Positions 1,854 through 46,272 of a stretch of DNA of 48,275 nt are shown here, in pieces. Positions within the stretch are counted from its first letter, which is position 1. The number at the start of each line of letters is the position of its first letter. The position numbers and the translations under genes were made by a program. Below the pieces are notes generated by a model. The model saw nothing but the letters and a program-made list of their open reading frames with translations, had not been told where the DNA came from and searched no databases. The DNA comes from a virus, in the IMG/VR virus record IMGVR_UViG_3300032289_001616, positions 1 through 48,275 of that record; one strand, 5' to 3'.

Positions 1854-4308
1854 TGGACTTCCAACTATTCATTACATTAGTTTAGAAGAAAGTTTAGACA
1901 GAAGAACTAATTTAGAAAATTGGTTTCAAAAATATAATATAACAAACTATGTTCCTCATCTATTCAAAAGATTTGAAAATTACAATCATAATTTAATCGG
2001 AACAAATGTGCATCTTTTGGCGGAACATTCAAAAGGTCCGATTACTTCTCATTTATGTTTACTCAAGGAATTATACGAGACTTATGATGATGAATATTTT
2101 TTGATTGTCGAAGATGATTTGTCTTTAGAAACTGTTGAACACTGGAACTTTACCTGGAAGCAATTTTATCAAAATCTTCCTAAAGATTGGAATGGTATTC
2201 AATTAACTATTGTAAGAGAATATAGTGTTGAAGATTATTCTTTTGAAGAAAGAAGAGATAAGGATTGGTGTGTTGCCGGATATTTAATAAAAAGAAACTA
2301 TGCAAAATGTCTTTTAGACTTATATTATTTTGATACTTATTTTAATCTAAACACTAGTTTTATTCCTGTAGTCGAAGACGTATTATTTTTTCATGCCAAT
2401 CCAAACATATATTGTTTTCCTCTATTTGTTGAGGATTTTTATAATGCAAAATCAACTTATAGAAATCCAGAACTGGTAGGTGTTTGTCATCATAAATCTT
2501 ATCATAATGTTTTAAATTGGTGGGAAAATAAAGGTAAAAATTTAACTATTAATCAAATAATGAATACACAACTCAATCACATTTATCAAGAACCCCAATT
2601 TGGAGAAAATTGGTTTTCATATCCAAATCTGTATAGGAAAATGGTTGAAAAATTCCCATCAGGTTCCAAGTTCGTTGAAATTGGTTCTTGGAAAGGAAAA
2701 TCTTCTGCATTTATGGCAGTTGAAATTGCAAATTCTAATAAAAACATTGAGTTCTATTGTGTAGATACTTGGGAAGGAAGTGTAGAGCATCAAGATAGAG
2801 ACGATTTAAAATCTTTATATGACACATTCAACCAAAATATGATGCCTTTAAAAGACTATCATATTCCTTTAAGAATGACTTCACTTGAAGCGGTAAAAAC
2901 TTTTGAAGACAAGTCTTTAGATTTTGTTTTTATTGATGCTTCTCACGAATATGAAGATGTAAAAAAAGACATTATTGCATGGTTGCCTAAGGTAAAACAA
3001 GGCGGAATTATTGCCGGGCACGATTACTATCTTAATGGGACCGACTTTTTCCCCGGAGTAAAACGAGCAGTTAATGAAACATTAAAAATTGATGAATTAG
3101 AATTTTCTGAAGATTGTTGGATGTATCAAGTAAAATCTATATCTAATGAATTAATAGATTATTCATTAGATACTGAGAATGCGGAAAAAAATTATAATCT
3201 CGCAAAGTGGTATGAAAGTCAAGGTCATACTGCACCAGCACATAGTTATTACTTAAGAGCAGCCGAAAGAAGTGGAGATAATCTTTTGGCATACACCGCA
3301 TTAATTCGTGGGTCATTCTGTTACGGGGCACAAAAATTAAGAGATTCTAGTGAAAAAGTATTACTAGAAAATGCTCTTGTACTTTTACCAAAAAGACCCG
3401 AAGCATATTATTTCCTTTCTTTGATATATGAAAGAAAACAAGAATGGCAACAGTCTTACATTTATGCAACACTAGGTCTAAATTGCTATGAAAATGACGA
3501 TGAATTCATAAACATCAATATCCCAGAATATTCCGGGAAACATTTGCTTATTTTTCAAAAGGCAATTTCTTCTTGGTGGTGGGGAAAAGGAGATGAAAGT
3601 AGAGAACTTTTAGAATTATTATACGATAATTATTGGAATGTTTTAGACGTGAAACATAAATCTTTAGTTGAAGAAAACGCAAAAAAAGTTGGAGTAAAAC
3701 TTGAAAAAAAGACCAAATTTCAACTTTCAGTAAATCAAAATAATACTTCCTGGATTGTAGATAACTTCTATGAGAATCCTGATGAAGTCAGAAAGTTTGC
3801 TCTAGAACAATCTTATCTTGAAGGTGGGATTGGTAGAGGGTTTATTGGTAGAAGAACCGAACAGCAATTCTTGTTTCCAGGTCTCAAAGAAAAATTTGAA
3901 GAGATTATGGGAAGAAGAATTACTGAATGGGAAAGTCATGGAATGAATGGAAGATTCCAGGTTGCCTGGGCCGGAGAACCACTAGTCTATCATTGTGATA
4001 GTCAGCAGTGGGGTGGAATGTTATATCTGACTCCTGACGCACCTTATCAGTGTGGTACTACTCTTTATGCTCATAAACAGACCAGAGCAAGGACTTATTA
4101 TGAAGAAGGATGGGATGTTGCTTGGAAAGATATTCCTGGAGACCCTCATTTAGATGGAACATCATTTGAACCTGTTGATGTTCTTGGGAATGTTTATAAT
4201 CGTCTTGTGATTTTTGATGCTAGTGCGATTCATAGTGCATCTCAATACTTTGGTACTGTGATGGAAAATAGCAGGCTCTGGCAAATGTTCTTTTTTGATA
4301 CTGAATGA
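1840..4308 (+). CDS. Fused glycosyltransferase / SAM methyltransferase / 2OG-Fe(II) oxygenase-like protein
   Basis: This 822-residue protein has at least three parts. Residues 1-230 look like a GT25/LPS-type glycosyltransferase (IHYISLEESLDRR near the start, IVEDDLS near 90). Residues about 265-420 form a class I methyltransferase with FVEIGSWKGKSS as the SAM-binding loop, YCVDTWEGS, FVFIDASHEYEDV and GGIIAGHDYY, like the methyltransferase-24 family. A helical TPR-like linker follows. The last 210 residues resemble DUF6445/2OG-Fe(II) dioxygenases, with YHCDSQQWGGMLYLTP and RLVIFDASAIHSA as probable iron-ligand regions. I chose the ATG at 1840, inside the end of the previous gene, over an upstream TTG. 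It probably builds or decorates a glycan; the exact reactions are not known. Confidence 0.75.
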   Translation: MNKLDGLPTIHYISLEESLDRRTNLENWFQKYNITNYVPHLFKRFENYNHNLIGTNVHLLAEHSKGPITSHLCLLKELYETYDDEYFLIVEDDLSLETVEHWNFTWKQFYQNLPKDWNGIQLTIVREYSVEDYSFEERRDKDWCVAGYLIKRNYAKCLLDLYYFDTYFNLNTSFIPVVEDVLFFHANPNIYCFPLFVEDFYNAKSTYRNPELVGVCHHKSYHNVLNWWENKGKNLTINQIMNTQLNHIYQEPQFGENWFSYPNLYRKMVEKFPSGSKFVEIGSWKGKSSAFMAVEIANSNKNIEFYCVDTWEGSVEHQDRDDLKSLYDTFNQNMMPLKDYHIPLRMTSLEAVKTFEDKSLDFVFIDASHEYEDVKKDIIAWLPKVKQGGIIAGHDYYLNGTDFFPGVKRAVNETLKIDELEFSEDCWMYQVKSISNELIDYSLDTENAEKNYNLAKWYESQGHTAPAHSYYLRAAERSGDNLLAYTALIRGSFCYGAQKLRDSSEKVLLENALVLLPKRPEAYYFLSLIYERKQEWQQSYIYATLGLNCYENDDEFININIPEYSGKHLLIFQKAISSWWWGKGDESRELLELLYDNYWNVLDVKHKSLVEENAKKVGVKLEKKTKFQLSVNQNNTSWIVDNFYENPDEVRKFALEQSYLEGGIGRGFIGRRTEQQFLFPGLKEKFEEIMGRRITEWESHGMNGRFQVAWAGEPLVYHCDSQQWGGMLYLTPDAPYQCGTTLYAHKQTRARTYYEEGWDVAWKDIPGDPHLDGTSFEPVDVLGNVYNRLVIFDASAIHSASQYFGTVMENSRLWQMFFFDTE

Positions 4309-8175: not shown

Positions 8176-8844
8176 ATGTCGTTATGTTTTATTTCAGATG
8201 TTCACTCACAATATAATCGACTTCAAAAGGCAGTTGATTATGCAGAGTCTCAGAATCTCCAGATTGTTTTTCTTGGAGATATCTTTGATAGTAAAGTTCA
8301 ATATAGTGACTCAGTTGGTGTTCTGAATCTAGTGGAGCGTGCTGTTCAAAATGGTCACATTTGCATAAATTCAAATCACCAAGATAAATTGATTCGCTAT
8401 CTCAAAGGAAATAATATAAACAAGAGTAATGGGCTTGATGTTACTATTAAGGAGTTTGAGGAAGCCAACGTCGATAAAGAAAAGTTGTTCAGGCTATTGA
8501 CTTCTTTTGCTTATGGGGCCATTATCAAGACCTCTGGGGGAAAAGAGTTCAGGATTGCTCACGCATATTTTCCGAATAGTCTTCAAACTAATTCAAATTT
8601 TGTTTATAGAAGTGATCTCAACCGGAGGTATAGGGATGTAATGATTTATGGAAAAACCGATAGGGAAAATACCCGAGTTAAATGGTGGGAAATCAGAAAC
8701 GAGAATCAGAATTACATTCGGGTTGCTGGCCATTACCATACTGTTCATGTTGATGACCAATCCGTAGTGCTTGATTCTGGTTGCGGTTCCGGCGGTTGTT
8801 TGTCTCTATATAACACAGATACCGGTGTAATTAAGGAGTTTTAA
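8176..8844 (+). CDS. Calcineurin-like metallophosphatase (Pnkp/PrpE-like)
   Basis: The 222-residue protein shows the metallophosphoesterase motifs ISDVHSQ (residues 6-12), FLGDIFD (about 32-38), SNHQDKL in place of GNHE/D, and AGHYHTVH near 195. The order fits the PPP-like phosphatases related to the Pnkp 2',3'-phosphatase domain and bacterial PrpE. Proximity to an RNA ligase and kinase suggests removal of 2'- or 3'-phosphates from broken RNA, which is inference. The stop overlaps the next start (TAATG). Its 5' end abuts a terminator hairpin. Confidence 0.75.
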   Translation: MSLCFISDVHSQYNRLQKAVDYAESQNLQIVFLGDIFDSKVQYSDSVGVLNLVERAVQNGHICINSNHQDKLIRYLKGNNINKSNGLDVTIKEFEEANVDKEKLFRLLTSFAYGAIIKTSGGKEFRIAHAYFPNSLQTNSNFVYRSDLNRRYRDVMIYGKTDRENTRVKWWEIRNENQNYIRVAGHYHTVHVDDQSVVLDSGCGSGGCLSLYNTDTGVIKEF

Positions 8845-9320
8845 TGAGTTATAAAGACCTAGAACCGTATCGGGATGTTTTACTGCTCAACTCAGACTAC
8901 AATCCTATTTCTATCATTAAATGGAGAAGGGCGGTTGTCCTTCTCCTAAAAGAAAGAGTCAAATTTATTTCTAAGAGAGTGGTTTGTTTAAAAACCTTTA
9001 TTAGAATTCCTTATGAAAAGCTATTAAGTGTGAAGCCCACAAAAAATCTTATTAAAAAATTTGGTAATTATACTTGTGCTTATTGTGGTTCATACAAGAA
9101 CCTTACTGTAGATCATGTTCTCCCCTTATCTAGAGGGGGGATACATGAATTCTCTAATATGGTGTGTGCATGTAGAAGTTGCAATGAAGAAAAGGGCAAC
9201 AGAACTCCCGAAGAATGGGGTAAATTACCCTACAGTAAACCATATAGACCATTCTCAAAACTTGAGTTGATTGTTAAACAATCAAATGTGTCTGAATGGA
9301 AACAATACATCTACACCTAG
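8844..9320 (+). CDS. HNH endonuclease
   Basis: The 158-residue protein has an N-terminal segment like LLNSDYNPISIIKWRRAVVL, typical of a widespread HNH family, followed by a zinc-supported HNH core: CAYCG, VDHVLPLSRGG, N and CRSCNEEKGNRTP. All the HNH residues look intact, so it should be a DNA nuclease. It overlaps the phosphatase by one base (TAATG). It could be a phage processing nuclease or a defence-type enzyme rather than a mobile homing enzyme. Confidence 0.8.
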   Translation: MSYKDLEPYRDVLLLNSDYNPISIIKWRRAVVLLLKERVKFISKRVVCLKTFIRIPYEKLLSVKPTKNLIKKFGNYTCAYCGSYKNLTVDHVLPLSRGGIHEFSNMVCACRSCNEEKGNRTPEEWGKLPYSKPYRPFSKLELIVKQSNVSEWKQYIYT

Positions 9321-17979: not shown

Positions 17980-18168
17980 ATGACTAATCGACATCCCATC
18001 CCCCCACCGCCGGAGCTGGTGCAGCAGTGGGTGGCCGAAATCTGGCACGAAGGAACCCCTGTTCGAGTTGCATTGAGCGACGAACACATCGCCACTCGCG
18101 CCGCCGCTTGGGGATACCAACAAGCAATCAAAGAACTAGAAAACTACCTTGAGAAGAACCATGCTTAA
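17980..18168 (+). CDS. Small cyanophage/Synechococcus-style protein
   Basis: The 62-residue protein has a Pro-rich N-terminus (HPIPPPPELVQQWVAEIW) and ends in WGYQQAIKELENYLEK. The pattern is like short accessory proteins I associate with Synechococcus genomes and their phages. Here the DNA turns GC-rich and stays so to about 20600. It overlaps the HNH gene by 8 bases. Confidence 0.65.
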   Translation: MTNRHPIPPPPELVQQWVAEIWHEGTPVRVALSDEHIATRAAAWGYQQAIKELENYLEKNHA

Positions 18169-18655
18169 GGAAAAAATCGCCCTGTTTGAAACTTATTTTA
18201 CACTTGACCCTGAAACTTTGAGCGGTGTGAGGTGGAAGATTGCACACGGTCCTTTTGGTTACGTCGGCCGTCCGGCGGGTTCAAAGAACAACAAAGGGTA
18301 TTACAGTGTCAAGCTCCACGGCAAGCAGCATAAATGTCACCAGATTGTCTTACTACTGTCGGGAATTTATCCTGGCAAGGAAGAAACTGAAGTTGACCAC
18401 ATAAACAGGGATCCTGCCGACAATTCGCTCTCAAATCTCCGATGGGTCACCCATTCAGAGAACTGTAAAAACAGAAAAGTCGTAGGGGGCGTTACGTATA
18501 AATACGTAACCAAAAGACTTAATGGGCGCTTTCAGGCTCGTTACAACCATCACAAAACTAGATGTAAAGTTCATGCCGGAACTTTTAAAGATCCGTATGA
18601 AGCCCATTGCCAAGCACTTGCGCACCGCCTTGAGAACCACTGGATCACACAATGA
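18161..18655 (+). CDS. HNH homing endonuclease (HNH_3/AP2-like)
   Basis: The 164-residue protein has an HNH core: CHQIVLLLSG, VDHINRDPADNSLSNLRWVT and SENCKNR. A C-terminal AP2-like DNA-binding segment follows (RFQARYNHHKTR, HAGTFKDPYEAHCQALAHRL). I chose ATG 18161 over a TTG at 18149. It resembles the endonuclease at 19122 in domain order. It is probably a free-standing mobile endonuclease embedded in the small-gene array. Confidence 0.8.
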   Translation: MLKEKIALFETYFTLDPETLSGVRWKIAHGPFGYVGRPAGSKNNKGYYSVKLHGKQHKCHQIVLLLSGIYPGKEETEVDHINRDPADNSLSNLRWVTHSENCKNRKVVGGVTYKYVTKRLNGRFQARYNHHKTRCKVHAGTFKDPYEAHCQALAHRLENHWITQ

Positions 18656-18897: not shown

Positions 18898-19129
18898 CGA
18901 CAAACCCAAATTCACCGGCAAGCTGACGGTGCCTGGTGGCATAACGCTTACTCAAATCGAGGCCGCACGAATTAACCATTCCCCTACCGCCTGGCGATTA
19001 GCCCGCCGCAATGGTGAGCTGATCCTGCAGGCCGGCAGCATGTGGACTCAAGGCAATGAATGCGGCGTTGAATGGAACGACGTGCCAACCGTAAACCTAG
19101 ACACCCTGGAGGCCCTACCCAATGACTGA
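18890..19129 (+). CDS. Small GC-rich array protein
   Basis: The 79-residue protein starts at ATG 18890 and has a beta-rich body with KLTVPGGITLTQIEA and LILQAGSMWTQG. Its C-terminus LEALPND repeats that of the preceding gene. It overlaps the next HNH gene by 8 bases. Function unknown. Confidence 0.6.
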   Translation: MTDDKPKFTGKLTVPGGITLTQIEAARINHSPTAWRLARRNGELILQAGSMWTQGNECGVEWNDVPTVNLDTLEALPND

Positions 19130-19631
19130 CCTCTCCCCCGCCGCGCAGAAAAATGAAAGCCGGGAGTTCTTGGCTGAGTGGTTCGAGTACGACACCAGCA
19201 GCCCGTCTTGTCTTAAATGGAAAAAACGCCCACCTCATGGACGCAAAGGAGACGGAGAGTTCTGTAGTTACTTGTCTAGGTATTACAGGGTTAAGCTCAT
19301 GGGTCACTGGTATCAATGCCACAGAATCATTCTGATCCTTCACGACATTAATCCGTGCGCGGGTCAAGTGGCAGACCACATAAATCGAAACAAGCTCGAC
19401 AATCGCCTAGAGAATCTGCGATGGTTAAACCCGAGCCAAAATCACCGCAATACGGCAGGCAAAGCAACGTCTGGCTGGAAGCACGCACGATTGACAAAAG
19501 AGAATACTTACAGGGCTAACTACCGTTACCCAGAAGAGAACAGGACGGTGTTTTGTGGAACATACAAAACTGCAGAACAGGCTCACTACGCAGCCATTGC
19601 TCACAAGCTAGAAAACTACTGGAGACCCTGA
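19122..19631 (+). CDS. HNH homing endonuclease (HNH_3/AP2-like), second copy
   Basis: The 169-residue protein has CHRIILILHDINP, ADHINRNKLDNRLENLRWL and SQNHRNT as HNH elements. An AP2-like tail follows (TYRANYRYPEENR, CGTYKTAEQAHYAAIAHKLE). It is a diverged paralogue of 18161-18655. Both sit in the same array about 0.5 kb apart, which suggests duplication or repeated invasion. Confidence 0.8.
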   Translation: MTDLSPAAQKNESREFLAEWFEYDTSSPSCLKWKKRPPHGRKGDGEFCSYLSRYYRVKLMGHWYQCHRIILILHDINPCAGQVADHINRNKLDNRLENLRWLNPSQNHRNTAGKATSGWKHARLTKENTYRANYRYPEENRTVFCGTYKTAEQAHYAAIAHKLENYWRP

Positions 19632-24772: not shown

Positions 24773-25327
24773 ATGATTGACCTGTCTAAATATATTGGCA
24801 AAAAAGTTAAATGTACTTTTAGTAACGGAAGTATTCCACTTGTTGGAACAGTTTCTTTCACTAGCCCCATTAGCCAATGGTGCGACGAATATCCGTACAA
24901 TATTGTAAATCGTGTTTTTGATAAAAACGGCAAAGGGATTAGTATGCTTCAGATTGCCACAGTTACCGAAGTATCCACTATTTGTGGAACCGCCCAACGC
25001 CATCCTAACATTAACCTTAATGATTTTAAGGACCAAATGTGTATTGTCAAGTGGAGTAATGGGAAAATTCAATATGATAAAGTTTGTTATGACGAAGAAG
25101 ATTCTTGGTGGGGTATATGTTTAACTGAAGGAATATCTTCGGATGGTAGTCTTCGTGGAACCGCTTCTCTTTACATCGCGGAAATCTATGGCGAGGGGGC
25201 CTACGAAATCAAAACCAAAGAAACCTTTGATGAGCCAACCGATGAGGCCGTGGAAAAGGCGAGAGACGCAATTAAAGACCTTTCCGAAGAACAAATCGCA
25301 AAACTTCTTCACTCTTTGAAAAAATGA
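24773..25327 (+). CDS. Paralogue A of a two-copy phage family
   Basis: The 184-residue protein starts MIDLSKYIGKKVKCTF. It shares with the protein at 41354-41881 the N-terminal LSKYxGK segment, the central PNINLxDF, the EIYGEGAYxIKTK block, and the C-terminal EEQIAKLL. The body is predicted beta-rich with a helical C-terminal tail. It overlaps the DNA ligase by four bases. Function unknown. Confidence 0.65.
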   Translation: MIDLSKYIGKKVKCTFSNGSIPLVGTVSFTSPISQWCDEYPYNIVNRVFDKNGKGISMLQIATVTEVSTICGTAQRHPNINLNDFKDQMCIVKWSNGKIQYDKVCYDEEDSWWGICLTEGISSDGSLRGTASLYIAEIYGEGAYEIKTKETFDEPTDEAVEKARDAIKDLSEEQIAKLLHSLKK

Positions 25328-36049: not shown

Positions 36050-36144
36050 ATACCAATACTCCTTTCGTTCAGCCGTAAGGCCGGAAGTAATCCCATTTGG
36101 GGTGAAGGAACGCGAACTTAGCCACTCGTTTCTTTGGAGGAACC

Positions 36145-39605: not shown

Positions 39606-40628
39606 ATGGCGACAGATCATTCCAAACAACCAAAATGTTGTTGCTTAGAGTGTGGTAAAGAATTCTATGTTATTTACTTTGAAAGACACATAAAAACATG
39701 TAAACACGTAAACAATAAAAACAAAATAGAAAAAGTATCCTGTCCTATTTGTGGAAAAAAATTAAAAGAAGTAAATACGGCTCACTTAAGAAAACATAAT
39801 TTAGAATATGAAGAAGCAAAAAAAATGTTCCCTGATCATATATTCATATCAGAAACTTCATTATCAAAAAAAGCAACTCTAACAAATTTAACTCCAGAAC
39901 AGTCAAAAAATTTAAAGTATGGACACACCTTGGAAGCTAAAATAAAAAAGTATGGTGAAGAAGAGGGATTAAAACGACATTTGGAATCTAAAGAAAACTA
40001 TTCATATTCTAAAAGTTTACAAGGTTACATTGATAGATTGGGCGAGGAAGAAGGAAGAAAACAATGGGAAAATAGGAATGAAAAAATTTCAGATACATTA
40101 ATAAAATTCTGGAGTGATCCACCGGAAGAATTAAAACTAAAAGGGACTCTTCAATGGTATCAAAAACAATACAGGGAAGAATTAGGAAAATTAAAGTGGT
40201 TAGAGATGTGTAATAATAAATCTAAATCTTTAAGAAAAATTCCAGTTGATTTGATACAGGAGTATGAATTATATAGATCCTTAGTGTACCGGGTAACCAG
40301 ATCTAATTTAAAATTATATAAAAACCAAATACCACTTTTAGAAACTAGGGGTAGATTAAATCATTTAGATCACATGTATTCAATATATCAAGGATTTATG
40401 TATAATGTTTCTCCATATATTATCGGATTTTTTAAAAATTTAAAAATTTTACCTGCTGGAGAAAATTGCTCAAAGCAAATTGACTGCTCCCAGTCTTTAG
40501 AACAAATTATATCAGAAATTAACAAAAATTTGGAATACCAAAATATTATAGAATCAGATTTGTTTGATATAGATAAATGCTTTAAACAATTATTGGATAG
40601 AAAAACAACATTATCTGATCTTCTTTAA
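39606..40628 (+). CDS. Homing endonuclease with N-terminal zinc fingers
   Basis: The 340-residue protein has two zinc-finger-like units (CLECGK...H...C and CPICGK...H...H). A helical linker with repeated KYGEEEGLKR / RLGEEEGRKQ segments follows, then a nuclease-like C-terminal part (YRVTRSNLKLYKNQ, LNHLDHMYSIYQGF, SPYIIGFFKNLKILPA and ENCSKQ). The HLDHxxSIxxGF pattern matches a group of phage homing nucleases with a His-Asp-His core. It sits next to a truncated nucleotidyltransferase start and behind a hairpin. Confidence 0.65.
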   Translation: MATDHSKQPKCCCLECGKEFYVIYFERHIKTCKHVNNKNKIEKVSCPICGKKLKEVNTAHLRKHNLEYEEAKKMFPDHIFISETSLSKKATLTNLTPEQSKNLKYGHTLEAKIKKYGEEEGLKRHLESKENYSYSKSLQGYIDRLGEEEGRKQWENRNEKISDTLIKFWSDPPEELKLKGTLQWYQKQYREELGKLKWLEMCNNKSKSLRKIPVDLIQEYELYRSLVYRVTRSNLKLYKNQIPLLETRGRLNHLDHMYSIYQGFMYNVSPYIIGFFKNLKILPAGENCSKQIDCSQSLEQIISEINKNLEYQNIIESDLFDIDKCFKQLLDRKTTLSDLL

Positions 40629-41353: not shown

Positions 41354-41881
41354 ATGACAATCGAACTTTCTAAATACGTCGGTAAATATATCACCGTTAC
41401 TCTTGGTAATGATAGAACTATAACCGGGGTACTTCAGGCAAATGATTCTAGTAAGTATCCATACATGATTAATGGTTATTGGTATTCTAATGACGGTATT
41501 GGGTGTAGTCAACCAAATATTGTAAGAATTATTTCAGAAGAGCAAACTTTTAATGGTATTGCTCAAAAGGCACCTAACATTAATCTTGATGATTTTGTGT
41601 GCCAGAAGGTTTATGTGAAGTTGGCTAATGGTTATGAGGACATTAGAAGTATTAGTAATTCCTATTACCTAGAAGGAGTTGGACATTATGATAATAAGGA
41701 TGGCACATGCAATTCAAATCCGACATGGAACATCGTAGAAATCTATGGTGAGGGTGCTTATCAAATCAAAACCAAACCCACCTTCGATGAACCGAATGAT
41801 GCTCAAATTGAGGAAGCAAAACAAATGCTTTCTCAAATGAGCGAAGAACAAATTGCCAAACTTCTGAAATCGCTTAAATGA
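41354..41881 (+). CDS. Paralogue B of a two-copy phage family
   Basis: The 175-residue protein begins MTIELSKYVGKYITVTLGN. It shares with 24773-25327 the PNINLDDF segment, EIYGEGAYQIKTKPTFDEP and the tail MSEEQIAKLLKSLK. The paralogues lie 16 kb apart, each behind a palindrome and promoter. It overlaps the next gene by four bases. Function unknown. Confidence 0.65.
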   Translation: MTIELSKYVGKYITVTLGNDRTITGVLQANDSSKYPYMINGYWYSNDGIGCSQPNIVRIISEEQTFNGIAQKAPNINLDDFVCQKVYVKLANGYEDIRSISNSYYLEGVGHYDNKDGTCNSNPTWNIVEIYGEGAYQIKTKPTFDEPNDAQIEEAKQMLSQMSEEQIAKLLKSLK

Positions 41882-42863: not shown

Positions 42864-43127
42864 ATGCAATTCCTTAACAACGTCCGCGCTCAAGATCAGA
42901 CTGCTCCTGTGACCCTTCTCGTTAACGAAGAGTCCTATGCTGTCACCCCTGCAAACTATCAGGGTAAGACCGTCGCCCAACTCTTCTCTCAGTATGCTTC
43001 TAATCTGGGTGTTGATGCTTCCCGCATCCAATCTTACATCCTGGACGCAACTCAGGTTCCCGGTGAAACTGTGGTTCGCCCCGGTGAGGTTTATCGTGGG
43101 GTTATCACTTCCGAGAGCAAGGGCTGA
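42864..43127 (+). CDS. Ubiquitin-like beta-grasp protein
   Basis: The 87-residue protein starts at the ATG after TTTATT and reads as a beta-grasp fold: strand VTLLVN, strand ESYAVTPAN, helix TVAQLFSQYASNLGV, then two strands ending in YRGVITSESKG. The C-terminal Gly is suited to adenylation by an E1-like enzyme, though a GG pair is absent. Adjacent JAMM and ThiF genes support the assignment. PRTRC-type operons contain a comparable small Ubl. The terminator after it allows it to be made at a higher level than the rest. Confidence 0.7.
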   Translation: MQFLNNVRAQDQTAPVTLLVNEESYAVTPANYQGKTVAQLFSQYASNLGVDASRIQSYILDATQVPGETVVRPGEVYRGVITSESKG

Positions 43128-43143
43128 TTAGCCACTCAATGAC

Positions 43144-43170
43144 AAGGCCCTAGATTTCTAGGGCCTTTTT
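43144..43170 (+). terminator. Hairpin terminator after the Ubl gene
   Basis: AAGGCCCTAG and CTAGGGCCTT form a ten-pair stem with a 4-base loop, followed by TTT. It lies 20 bases before the JAMM gene start, so JAMM expression may need read-through. Confidence 0.8.
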
Positions 43171-43190
43171 ACACTCTTTTCTTTTTTTTT

Positions 43191-43613
43191 ATGGAAAATC
43201 AAATTCTACGAACAGCAAATCATGGATGTTTTCAGTTTTATACTGGAGGCTGGGGTACTTATATCCGGCCGATTGATGATCCAGAAGCCAATGTGATCAT
43301 TGAGAAAAAAGATCTAGAAACATTCACTCTTAAAGAAGACATTCATCGAATTCCTTCTGAACTTTGGCAGCGTTGGGTTCAACTTTGTTTTCATTTTGTC
43401 GAAGAAGTTCCATCTGACATGGAAGTATCCATCAGGATTCTTCGGAGTGAAAAAGATCCTTCTGTTTATCGGATTGTTGTGCCTAAGCAGAAAGTTTCTG
43501 CCGCAACAGTGCGAGTTGATAGTTTCCATGAGGCTGTTGATATTGAAACTGGTGAAGAGATCACCCAATTTCCTCCTGTTGGATGGATTCCGGTTGGGAG
43601 TTCTCACTCGCAT
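43191..43613 (+). CDS. JAMM/JAB isopeptidase, exon 1 (residues 1-141)
   Basis: This exon encodes 141 residues that end VGSSHSH, followed directly by an in-frame TAA that belongs to the intron. An N-terminal domain of about 95 residues precedes the JAB part (IVVPKQKVSAATVRVDSFHE with E114 as candidate catalytic Glu, and PPVGWIPVGSSHSH). Without splicing the protein stops before the JAMM Ser and Asp, so it would be inactive. Spliced to 43906 in frame it gives 320 residues. The family removes Ubl modifiers or processes their C-termini. Confidence 0.85.
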
Positions 43614-43905
43614 TAATTGTGTGGTGCGAGTAAAACCTCGGTAAATTGCTGGAACATCCTAAAGCCCCAATACCACAACGTAGTTGGAAACGACAAGCGT
43701 GAAGGTTTGAAAAGTTTGGGGATAACAATGGACAATCAGCAGCGGATACCCTTTAATATGGGGAGCGTTCAGAGACTAGACCCGAGGACATAGATAAATA
43801 ATTATCTGTGTATGGTATAGTCCGGTCTATGGTGAAAATCATAGAGTCAGGCAGAAATGACCTGACCCCACAAATTTCCAGCCAGATTTGTGTGGTAACA
43901 AGACG
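43614..43905 (+). ncRNA. Group I self-splicing intron (about 292 nt)
   Basis: P1: exon end CTCGCAT pairs with the internal guide GTGCGAG (43624-43630), with the expected terminal U-G pair. P3: CCTCGG (43636-43641) with CCGAGG (43782-43787). P4: GCTG (43648-43651) with CAGC (43737-43740), in AATCAGCAGC. P7: GACTA (43774-43778) with TAGTC (43818-43822). P8 and P9 hairpins are visible (GATAA/TTATC, CTATG/CATAG). The intron ends in G before AACAC. It has no open reading frame. Subclass not assigned. Confidence 0.92.
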
Positions 43906-44445
43906 AACACGATGCAAGCATTCTTTAGTGCTATTGATGACAAGTATGAACTTGGAGATCCTGGGATCCATATTGTAGTCGGTTCTATTAACACAGAAAA
44001 AAGAACCTATGCAATCAAGGCATCTATCGTTGCTAATGGTCGAAGGTTTGATGTAGATCACAACAAAATTATTGATTGTGAGCCAGTAGAAGAAGTGACC
44101 TTCCATAATAACGTTCTTAAGTATGTTGATTATACCAAGCCGGTAATTAATTTGCCCTCCAAAACAAATAATTATAGATCGTTTCAAAATTCAAACAATA
44201 GGAGTAATTCTTACAATTACAAATCACCTTTTGGCTTTTCCGATCAAATTGATTTTTCAGAAGATTACTACAGAGAATTTTTTGGTGAGACGGAAGTAGC
44301 CAAAAAGAAGGATCTTCAATTGTGGCAGATTGAAGATGTTATTGAAGACTACATCAAACAAAATAAAGGAAATGTTGAAGAAATTCAAGAATTGATTTCT
44401 CTTCTTTCTGTTTATGTTGAAGAACACACCGAACTTTTCACCTAA
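43906..44445 (+). CDS. JAMM/JAB isopeptidase, exon 2 (residues 142-320)
   Basis: The exon begins NTMQAFFSAIDD. Joined to exon 1 it makes HSH-x7-S-x2-D, the exact JAMM zinc motif. DPGIHIVVGSIN and YAIKASIVANGRRF continue the JAB fold to about residue 200. The remaining 120 residues are polar and low-complexity in part, with a C-terminal helix (IQELISLLSVYVEEH). Read alone the frame could start at ATG 43888, but this is intron sequence. The next gene starts two bases after the stop. Confidence 0.85.
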   Translation, partial: NTMQAFFSAIDDKYELGDPGIHIVVGSINTEKRTYAIKASIVANGRRFDVDHNKIIDCEPVEEVTFHNNVLKYVDYTKPVINLPSKTNNYRSFQNSNNRSNSYNYKSPFGFSDQIDFSEDYYREFFGETEVAKKKDLQLWQIEDVIEDYIKQNKGNVEEIQELISLLSVYVEEHTELFT

Positions 44446-44447
44446 TT

Positions 44448-45488
44448 ATGAACCCCATTTTCCCGACTGAACCTGCGAAAGTTAATGTCCATCTTGTTCC
44501 CCCTCAGGCAGAATTTCTTTCTTATTTTGTAGAACCGGACACATTTACTCTCCGGGCATGGATGCCAGACAATTTTGCCAATCTTAATGAGTCTTCATCG
44601 GTGCAGCAAGACTATGATAGATTTTATAGTCAGAATTGCTTAGAGTGTGAAAGAAATTGTAGGAATTTTTATGAGACTAATCACCCAGAGCTTTTCCATG
44701 ATCCAGAAGAAGATGGGTATCGAAACTCAATTGCGTCAGCAGTTAGTGCCTTTATTGGTGAAGATAACGGAGAGTGTGCTGTTTATTGGGAAGGGTTTCG
44801 TGGGCAACAGTGCCCCATGGGAAATGTATTTGAAGCGAAGCCTCCCACATATGACAAAATTGCAAACATGGTGTTTGACATTAAATTGACACATGGTAAA
44901 ACTAAACCTCGATTTAAAAAATATACGGACAATGCCCATCTGAAGGCTGGTTATGTAGACCAATCCGGGCAGATTTATGAAACTACTGCGAAACCTGCTG
45001 CAAATGTTTACAGCTCATCTTTTGGTTATGATCCAGGTTATGTATATGGTAAGATTTGCTGGAACTATATTACAAATCACCTTACTTTGAGGGACATTGT
45101 AACTTCTTATACGACTTCTAAATTCAATGATGATTTGCTGAGAATTTTTGCTTTTAAATCATACATCAGCGAAACACGGGAAAGTATGAAGTATAAACAG
45201 TATGAAAAATCAAATCATAAGTTCTTGGCGTCTGGTTATGATGGTTTGATCCTTATTGATGCGGATAAAGATGTTCAGGCATTCTTTACCATGCTGATGG
45301 CCGGGTTTACACCTCTTCCTGAACTTCCGCATATTATGGTTGTTCCTGCCAAGACTGCGACTATTAAAAAAGGTGAAATGATTTATCTTGGTTATGCTAC
45401 TCAAGAGGATGCAGTCGGTCGATCCTGGTACATCTCAACAGAAGGATTTTTGATTGGTCAACTTGACGAATCCTTTGTGACAGTTTGA
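44448..45488 (+). CDS. Unknown cassette protein (346 residues) between JAMM and E1
   Basis: The protein starts two bases after the JAMM gene. It has a Cys cluster CLECERNC near residue 65, then ECAVYWEGFRGQQCP, a beta-rich body and HIMVVPAKTATIKKGEMIYL near the C-terminus. Its position suggests a partner, substrate or E2-like role, but I see no clear catalytic motif. A degenerate palindrome copy overlaps its stop. It is the least understood part of the cassette. Confidence 0.7.
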   Translation: MNPIFPTEPAKVNVHLVPPQAEFLSYFVEPDTFTLRAWMPDNFANLNESSSVQQDYDRFYSQNCLECERNCRNFYETNHPELFHDPEEDGYRNSIASAVSAFIGEDNGECAVYWEGFRGQQCPMGNVFEAKPPTYDKIANMVFDIKLTHGKTKPRFKKYTDNAHLKAGYVDQSGQIYETTAKPAANVYSSSFGYDPGYVYGKICWNYITNHLTLRDIVTSYTTSKFNDDLLRIFAFKSYISETRESMKYKQYEKSNHKFLASGYDGLILIDADKDVQAFFTMLMAGFTPLPELPHIMVVPAKTATIKKGEMIYLGYATQEDAVGRSWYISTEGFLIGQLDESFVTV

Positions 45489-45558
45489 TTTCTGACCACT
45501 GGCCGTTTCCTTTGACCCATTTTTCACTTACCATAACGAAGTAGTTCACAACTCTCCT

Positions 45559-46272
45559 ATGAATTTCAATCCTGATACAGTTTTCATTATCGGCGTTGGT
45601 GGCACTGGTGGCTACCTTGCTGCCCCCATTGCCCGGTTGGTTGCTTACCATGAAGCAACTCAAAATGCCAAGGTTGTTTTTATTGATGGTGATGAATTTG
45701 AAGAGCATAATGCTACTCGGCAGATTGTGGGGCCATCACAAATCGGTCTTAACAAGGCCAGGGCCATGGTTGATTTTTGTACTTTTCAAGGTCTTAGCAA
45801 TGTAGAATGTAAAGAAGATTTCATTTCAATGACTTCTTTTATTCCGATGCTGAACCAAACTAAATCTCCCCTGATTATCTGTTCGGTTGACAATGATGCG
45901 ACCCGCCATGATGTAATTCAGGCCATTGATCATGCTTGTAAAAACAAGGACTTCTTCTTTATTACTCCTGGCAACTCTGATGGGACTGAAACTGTAAAGG
46001 GCCAAACATTGTGGTTTGGTCGGTGTGATGGAGAAAATGTCGGAATGGATCCAACTCTGGTTTATCCTAATCTCCAGAATCCAGAAGACAGTGTTCCCCA
46101 TAAGGGATCTTGCGCTCTTAACGCACCTTCTCGCCCTCAACTGATTTCTGCTAACTTTATGGCAGCAGCGATTACCCTTACTGTGATTCAAAATTTCCTA
46201 GACGGTATGTTGGATCACAAAAAAAGCGGCATGTTCTTCAATGGCCGCACCCTTATCACCTCTATCTCCTGA
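45559..46272 (+). CDS. ThiF/E1-like Ubl-activating enzyme (PRTRC ThiF-like)
   Basis: The 237-residue protein has a GVGGTGG nucleotide loop (12-18), IDGDEFEEHNATRQ (42-55, with the ATP-contacting Asp, Asn and Arg), K66 and CSVDN (108-112). A Cys at 185 lies in HKGSCALNAPSRPQ, where PRTRC-type ThiF proteins carry a conserved SCxLxxA...Q segment. It ends in the hydrophobic region typical of that family. It should adenylate the Ubl C-terminus. This Cys is the candidate thioester site. Confidence 0.85.
   Translation: MNFNPDTVFIIGVGGTGGYLAAPIARLVAYHEATQNAKVVFIDGDEFEEHNATRQIVGPSQIGLNKARAMVDFCTFQGLSNVECKEDFISMTSFIPMLNQTKSPLIICSVDNDATRHDVIQAIDHACKNKDFFFITPGNSDGTETVKGQTLWFGRCDGENVGMDPTLVYPNLQNPEDSVPHKGSCALNAPSRPQLISANFMAAAITLTVIQNFLDGMLDHKKSGMFFNGRTLITSIS

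Follow-up and report, generated by a model that had tools for sequence, protein, structure and literature searches.

A group I intron without an endonuclease gene splits the catalytic motif of a predicted JAMM protease gene in a phage contig

The viral contig analysed here (IMG/VR record IMGVR_UViG_3300032289_001616; 48,275 nucleotides, hereafter the window) carries a cassette at positions 42864-46272 encoding, in order, a Ubl-like protein, a predicted JAMM protease, an E2-like candidate and a ThiF-type E1, an arrangement common to three closely examined related loci (L022, L026 and L027). The JAMM gene is divided into two exons by a 292-nt group I intron (Table 1). The locus also highlights a Ubl-JAMM-(E2-like)-E1 cassette carried by phages and conserved among several viral contigs.

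Table 1. Coordinates of the cassette genes, the intron and its helices, and a second intron in a related locus
Feature	Position	Strand	Basis or remark
Small Ubl-like protein, first cassette gene	42864..43127	+	Ends ...SESKG; conserved in L022 and L008/L027; putative, from position and C-terminal glycine
JAMM exon 1 (Prok-JAB, PRTRC_A-like)	43191..43613	+	tblastn to intron-less homologues; ends ...GSSHSH, U43613 paired to G43624
Group I intron	43614..43905	+	Rfam RF00028 match; same site in L022 and L027
P1	43606..43631	+	43606-43613 (exon) / 43624-43631 (guide); 8 bp, identical in all three copies
P10 guide half	43617..43622	+	Pairs with 43907-43912 of exon 2
P3 5' strand	43636..43641	+	Partner 43782-43787
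P4-P5 region	43647..43741	+	P4 43647-43652/43736-43741; P5 43657-43659/43730-43732; P5 extension 43665-43721
P6	43749..43762	+
P7 5' strand	43774..43778	+	Partner 43818-43822; expected guanosine-binding helix
P8	43788..43811	+	Compensatory pair 43791-43808
P9 hairpins	43826..43895	+	P9 43826-43845; P9.1 43846-43866 (compensatory 43848-43864); P9.2 43867-43895
P10 exon 2 half	43907..43912	+
JAMM exon 2	43906..44445	+	Begins NTMQAFFSAIDD; homologue alignment
E2-like candidate (Prok-E2_D/PRTRC_B-type)	44448..45488	+	Invariant Cys residues in A4
E1-like ThiF adenylyltransferase	45559..46272	+	PF00899 33.7 bits, over cut-off
L030 group I intron	L030 5427-6541		Carries ORF with LAGLIDADG_3 domain; 12 nt downstream of the window intron's site

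Bacterial type 6d Ubl-JAB-E1-E2 operons have been listed by Iyer and colleagues (PMC1779556). With these operons and with the PRTRC system (TIGR03735, TIGR03736) the window cassette shares its gene set, including a small protein with a C-terminal Gly and a separate ThiF-type E1, as well as conserved Arg and Trp residues in the N-terminal region that precedes the JAMM domain. It differs in being phage-borne, in falling under the NCBI PRTRC cut-offs and in the weakness of its E2 assignment. The E1-like protein scored 49.4 bits against TIGR03736 PRTRC_ThiF (cut-off 144.75) and the JAMM protein 24.3 bits against PRTRC_A (cut-off 101.8), which argues that the cassette is a relative of the PRTRC system and not a member of it. 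No profile matched the Ubl-like protein. For the E2-like candidate, PF14460 was matched by the L030 orthologue only, below cut-off, and a structure model with a mean pLDDT of 52 was too poor and was set aside. PADLOC returned a partial match only for the E1-like protein, to E1-E2 defence models, and nothing for the remaining cassette proteins. In the Ubl-like gene of L027/L008 (L008 4415-4684, minus strand), two alanines follow the conserved terminal KG; this protein may have to be trimmed, a task that could fall to the JAMM protease.

Read without splicing, the JAMM frame reaches ...GSSHSH and then stops at TAA (43614-43616), directly after HSH. Joining 43613 to 43906 yields the in-frame GSSHSHNTMQAFFSAIDD and restores H-x-H-x7-S-x2-D, so that the intron interrupts the motif E-x(n)-H-x-H-x7-S-x2-D; both readings had been given by a first-pass annotation made from the letters alone, and both hold. 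Using the joined protein and then an alignment, we gathered relatives at 21 loci in viral contigs. Fourteen distinct intron-less homologues (L010, L011 with its near-copies, L015, L017, L018, L019, L020, L021, L023, L024, L025, L026, L028 and L029) are continuous through SHSHNTM (HSH/NTM), with zero residues at the joint, and a fifteenth, L030, is uninterrupted here and split 12 nt further on. This read-through confirms the exact 43613/43906 boundaries that the first-pass annotation had proposed; no homologue places residues inside 43614-43905 at the joint. A splice site shifted by one nucleotide, where U43614 could also form a wobble, was discarded, as it would put the two exons out of frame.

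Across the 14 aligned homologues, motif residues E78, H139, H141, S149 and D152 are invariant, and the family's longest invariant run is GSSHSHNTM, within which the joint falls. PF14464 (Prok-JAB) was matched by all 14 members, with E values up to 0.01 and the first member just under the curated cut-off. A model of the intron-less L010 orthologue (overall pLDDT 70, about 90 across most of the core) matched Pyrococcus JAMM1, AF2198, Rpn11 and AMSH in a Foldseek search. Its predicted fold agrees with those of AF2198, Pyrococcus JAMM1, Rpn11 and Cap3, although identity in the structural alignments is 10-19% and the phage protein has extra N- and C-terminal regions. Judged by profile and predicted fold, the JAMM label is sound for the putative protease. 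When bacterial and archaeal genomes were searched at the protein level with the JAMM alignment, no relative was found, and a profile search against PDB sequences gave no match. To judge by the literature searched, JAMM is a new host gene among the phage genes hit by group I introns.

When all Rfam models were searched, RF00028 (group I intron) matched 43604-43844 over the full model with 59.2 bits (cut-off 50, E 1.3e-12), and the copies in L022 and L027 scored 63.3 and 54.8 bits. The window match was obtained with cmscan; a genome-search form of the Rfam search returned nothing for the window record, which we attribute to a filter in that tool. The covariance model recovered the conserved group I core of P3, P4, P6 and P7. 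We drew the structure by hand (P1, P3-P9.2 and P10) on an alignment of the three intron copies from the window, L022 and L027, and found helices P1, P3, P4, P6, P7, P8 and P9 together with a 6-bp P10. The intron begins with TAA and ends with G43905, P1 terminates in the wobble U43613-G43624 at the 5' splice site, and both this wobble and the terminal G are present in all three copies. The covariance match and the three-copy structure thus bear out the original call of a group I intron with a P1 U-G, P3, P4 and P7. P7.1 and P7.2, which are peripheral elements of sub-group IA, seem absent, with three nucleotides alone separating the P7 5' strand from the P3 3' strand.

Pairing in the drawn structure is found in 99.3% of cells, as against 31-41% after every 3' partner was slid by 1-3 nt. 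Five pairs have changed on both sides while keeping their pairing, one in P10 and four elsewhere (43657-43732, 43669-43717, 43791-43808 and 43848-43864). The P10 pair, 43621-43908, is G-C in the window, A-U in L022 and G-U in L027; this covariation across the splice site is evidence for the RNA fold as well as for the 3' splice site. Statistics are limited with three sequences only, and the shuffling control reached the observed values of the main measures in 4 to 9 of 500 shuffles. On this structural evidence, the intron most likely cuts itself out of the predicted JAMM transcript. An open reading frame check found no ORF longer than 58 aa inside it, in line with the earlier remark that an endonuclease gene, as carried by a self-mobile intron, is missing.

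L022 (also L005 and L009) and L027 (also L008) carry this intron at exactly the corresponding nucleotide, and exact-match pattern scans of viral contigs for the intron found no carriers beyond these two. Identity to the window is 98% for the L022 intron and 95% for that of L027, compared with 87/79% and 71/69%, respectively, for exons 1/2; at third codon positions upstream of the joint it is 69% (L022) and 45% (L027). Intron positions that are unpaired show no less conservation than those that pair (98% versus 97% in L022, 94% versus 93% in L027), so RNA structure alone cannot explain the low divergence. An intron more alike than its flanking exons points to horizontal spread, with arrival after the host genes had diverged, and these comparisons indicate that the intron is horizontally acquired by related phages. 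Mobility, inferred at first from the insertion site alone, is therefore borne out by the intron/exon divergence and by patchy presence. The idea that insertion at the most conserved codons is typical of homing also fits, as the joint lies within the family's longest invariant stretch.

L022 and its intron-less sister L010 are 95% identical in exon 1, yet differ at positions -1, -4, -5 and -6; at all four, L022 agrees with the other carriers (binomial p for the clustering about 8e-5). Compared in this way, the exon changes look like co-conversion of a very short flank, although P1 pairing needs the same bases, so that selection could mimic co-conversion. The intron-less allele of L015 already has the same TCGCAT codons.

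Beyond this family, the intron core is 70-76% identical to introns in phages of Flavobacterium, Vibrio, Serratia, Enterococcus, Staphylococcus, Listeria and Pseudomonas. Introns with related cores are present in many phages of other hosts, and genes near them bear capsid, RNA polymerase beta subunit and lysin annotations. With endonuclease-less phage group I introns (RF00028) the window intron shares the core helices, the P1 U-G wobble, the terminal G and insertion at conserved codons of a protein gene; it differs in its new host gene, JAMM, and in that no P7.1/P7.2 was recognised.

In L030, a different group I intron of 1.1 kb (83.1 bits) divides the JAMM gene behind NTMG. With two distinct introns 12 nt apart, the catalytic codons have been invaded twice, in agreement with the preference of group I introns for conserved sites (PMC2814812) and the tendency of phage introns towards conserved protein genes (PMC3984707). 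The same intron in three phages, many empty sites and a second intron 12 nt away together offer a natural case for studying the movement of an endonuclease-less intron. At L053 1320-2200, on the contig of L030, a DNA polymerase A-like gene carries an insert that follows its VHD motif. One segment of this insert shares 81% identity with P3-P5 of the window intron, and the opposite strand holds an ORF; the insert's Rfam score is under the cut-off.

Free-standing endonucleases can mobilise neighbouring introns, as described for F-CphI and the cyanophage psbA intron (PMC6083498) and elsewhere (PMC10448857). Movement without an endonuclease of its own, patchy occurrence in related phages and a conserved target are common to the window intron and the S-PM2 psbA intron in its collaborative homing with F-CphI (PMC6083498); that system differs in having a named cutting enzyme. 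The endonuclease-like ORFs near the intron differ from carrier to carrier, and a search with HNH, HNH_3 and the 39606-40628 protein found no free-standing endonuclease common to all three carriers, whose records are fragments. HNH endonuclease genes, possible free-standing homing endonucleases, lie at 8844-9320, 18149-18655 and 19122-19631 of the window. Candidates for the cutting enzyme are the products of 39606-40628 and 8844-9320 in the window and of 2532-3077 and 3460-4515 in L022, together with the ORF of the L030 intron. The window intron, itself endonuclease-less, is probably mobilised in trans and near-neutral once spliced.

Taken as a whole, 43614-43905 is, with high confidence, a self-splicing-type group I intron that invaded a phage JAMM gene at its most conserved codons and would be removed by guanosine-initiated splicing; endonuclease-less and probably cut in trans, it would have spread horizontally between related phages as a selfish, near-neutral element and not a regulator. 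Its guide would pair with the eight nucleotides that close exon 1 (P1, with the U-G wobble) and with the first nucleotides of exon 2 (P10), and guanosine-initiated transesterification would then excise the intron to leave a continuous JAMM mRNA, as the structure and the intron-less relatives suggest. Spread would proceed by DNA recombination after cutting of empty sites, probably by an endonuclease encoded elsewhere.

The first-pass annotation had gone further in proposing that splicing, as a condition for isopeptidase activity, may regulate deconjugation. Its premise stands, in that full-length JAMM protein needs splicing: the unspliced protein would end right after H-x-H, without the S and D of the motif, and the intact structure is retained in three phages. 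These points would suit a domesticated switch, with splicing efficiency regulated by infection stage or metabolite and active JAMM isopeptidase made only upon splicing. However, the need for splicing to complete the protein holds for any intron and is thus no evidence of regulation. Core helices, the P5 extension and the P9 hairpins account for the whole length of this compact intron, leaving no insertion that resembles a ligand domain, and Rfam finds no riboswitch inside it. Moreover, most homologues, a close sister included, are without the intron, and the divergence pattern is that of a recently arrived mobile element. We therefore consider such a switch very unlikely, and hold an equally low opinion of a splicing gate that delays or conditions the phage deconjugating protease so that Ubl conjugation and deconjugation are separated in time during infection.

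Slightly less credible again is a degenerate insertion, in which splicing has been lost and JAMM is a pseudogene in the window phage. The Rfam score is modest (59 bits versus 83 for the L030 intron), but both exons remain open and conserved, no helix is disrupted (P1, P10 and P7 included), changes across the three copies preserve pairing, and the adjoining E1 gene is likewise intact, with 91-92% conservation in L010 and L022. In principle the two halves could be joined by a programmed bypass at the ribosome, of the kind known from T4 gene 60, in place of RNA splicing, given a stop codon directly after the first half and a gap that preserves the frame; as the 292 nt have the full group I core, P1 at one end and P10 at the other, and a G as last base, a second mechanism is not needed, and we give bypass almost no weight. 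We conclude that a genuine group I intron with well-defined ends interrupts the JAMM gene; it is a selfish element of a known kind and shows no sign of a switch role.

Outside the cassette, positions 36064-36116 hold the aptamer of a glutamine riboswitch (RF01739, 46.9 bits), here a phage-borne element of cyanobacterial type, and the related contig L018 contains a cyanobacterial tmRNA; from these sequence elements, we infer that the hosts may be cyanobacterial. The genes at 24773-25327 and 41354-41881 of the window encode paralogous proteins that share their matches in L022 and L026, and the 41354-41881 protein has a weak LSM match.
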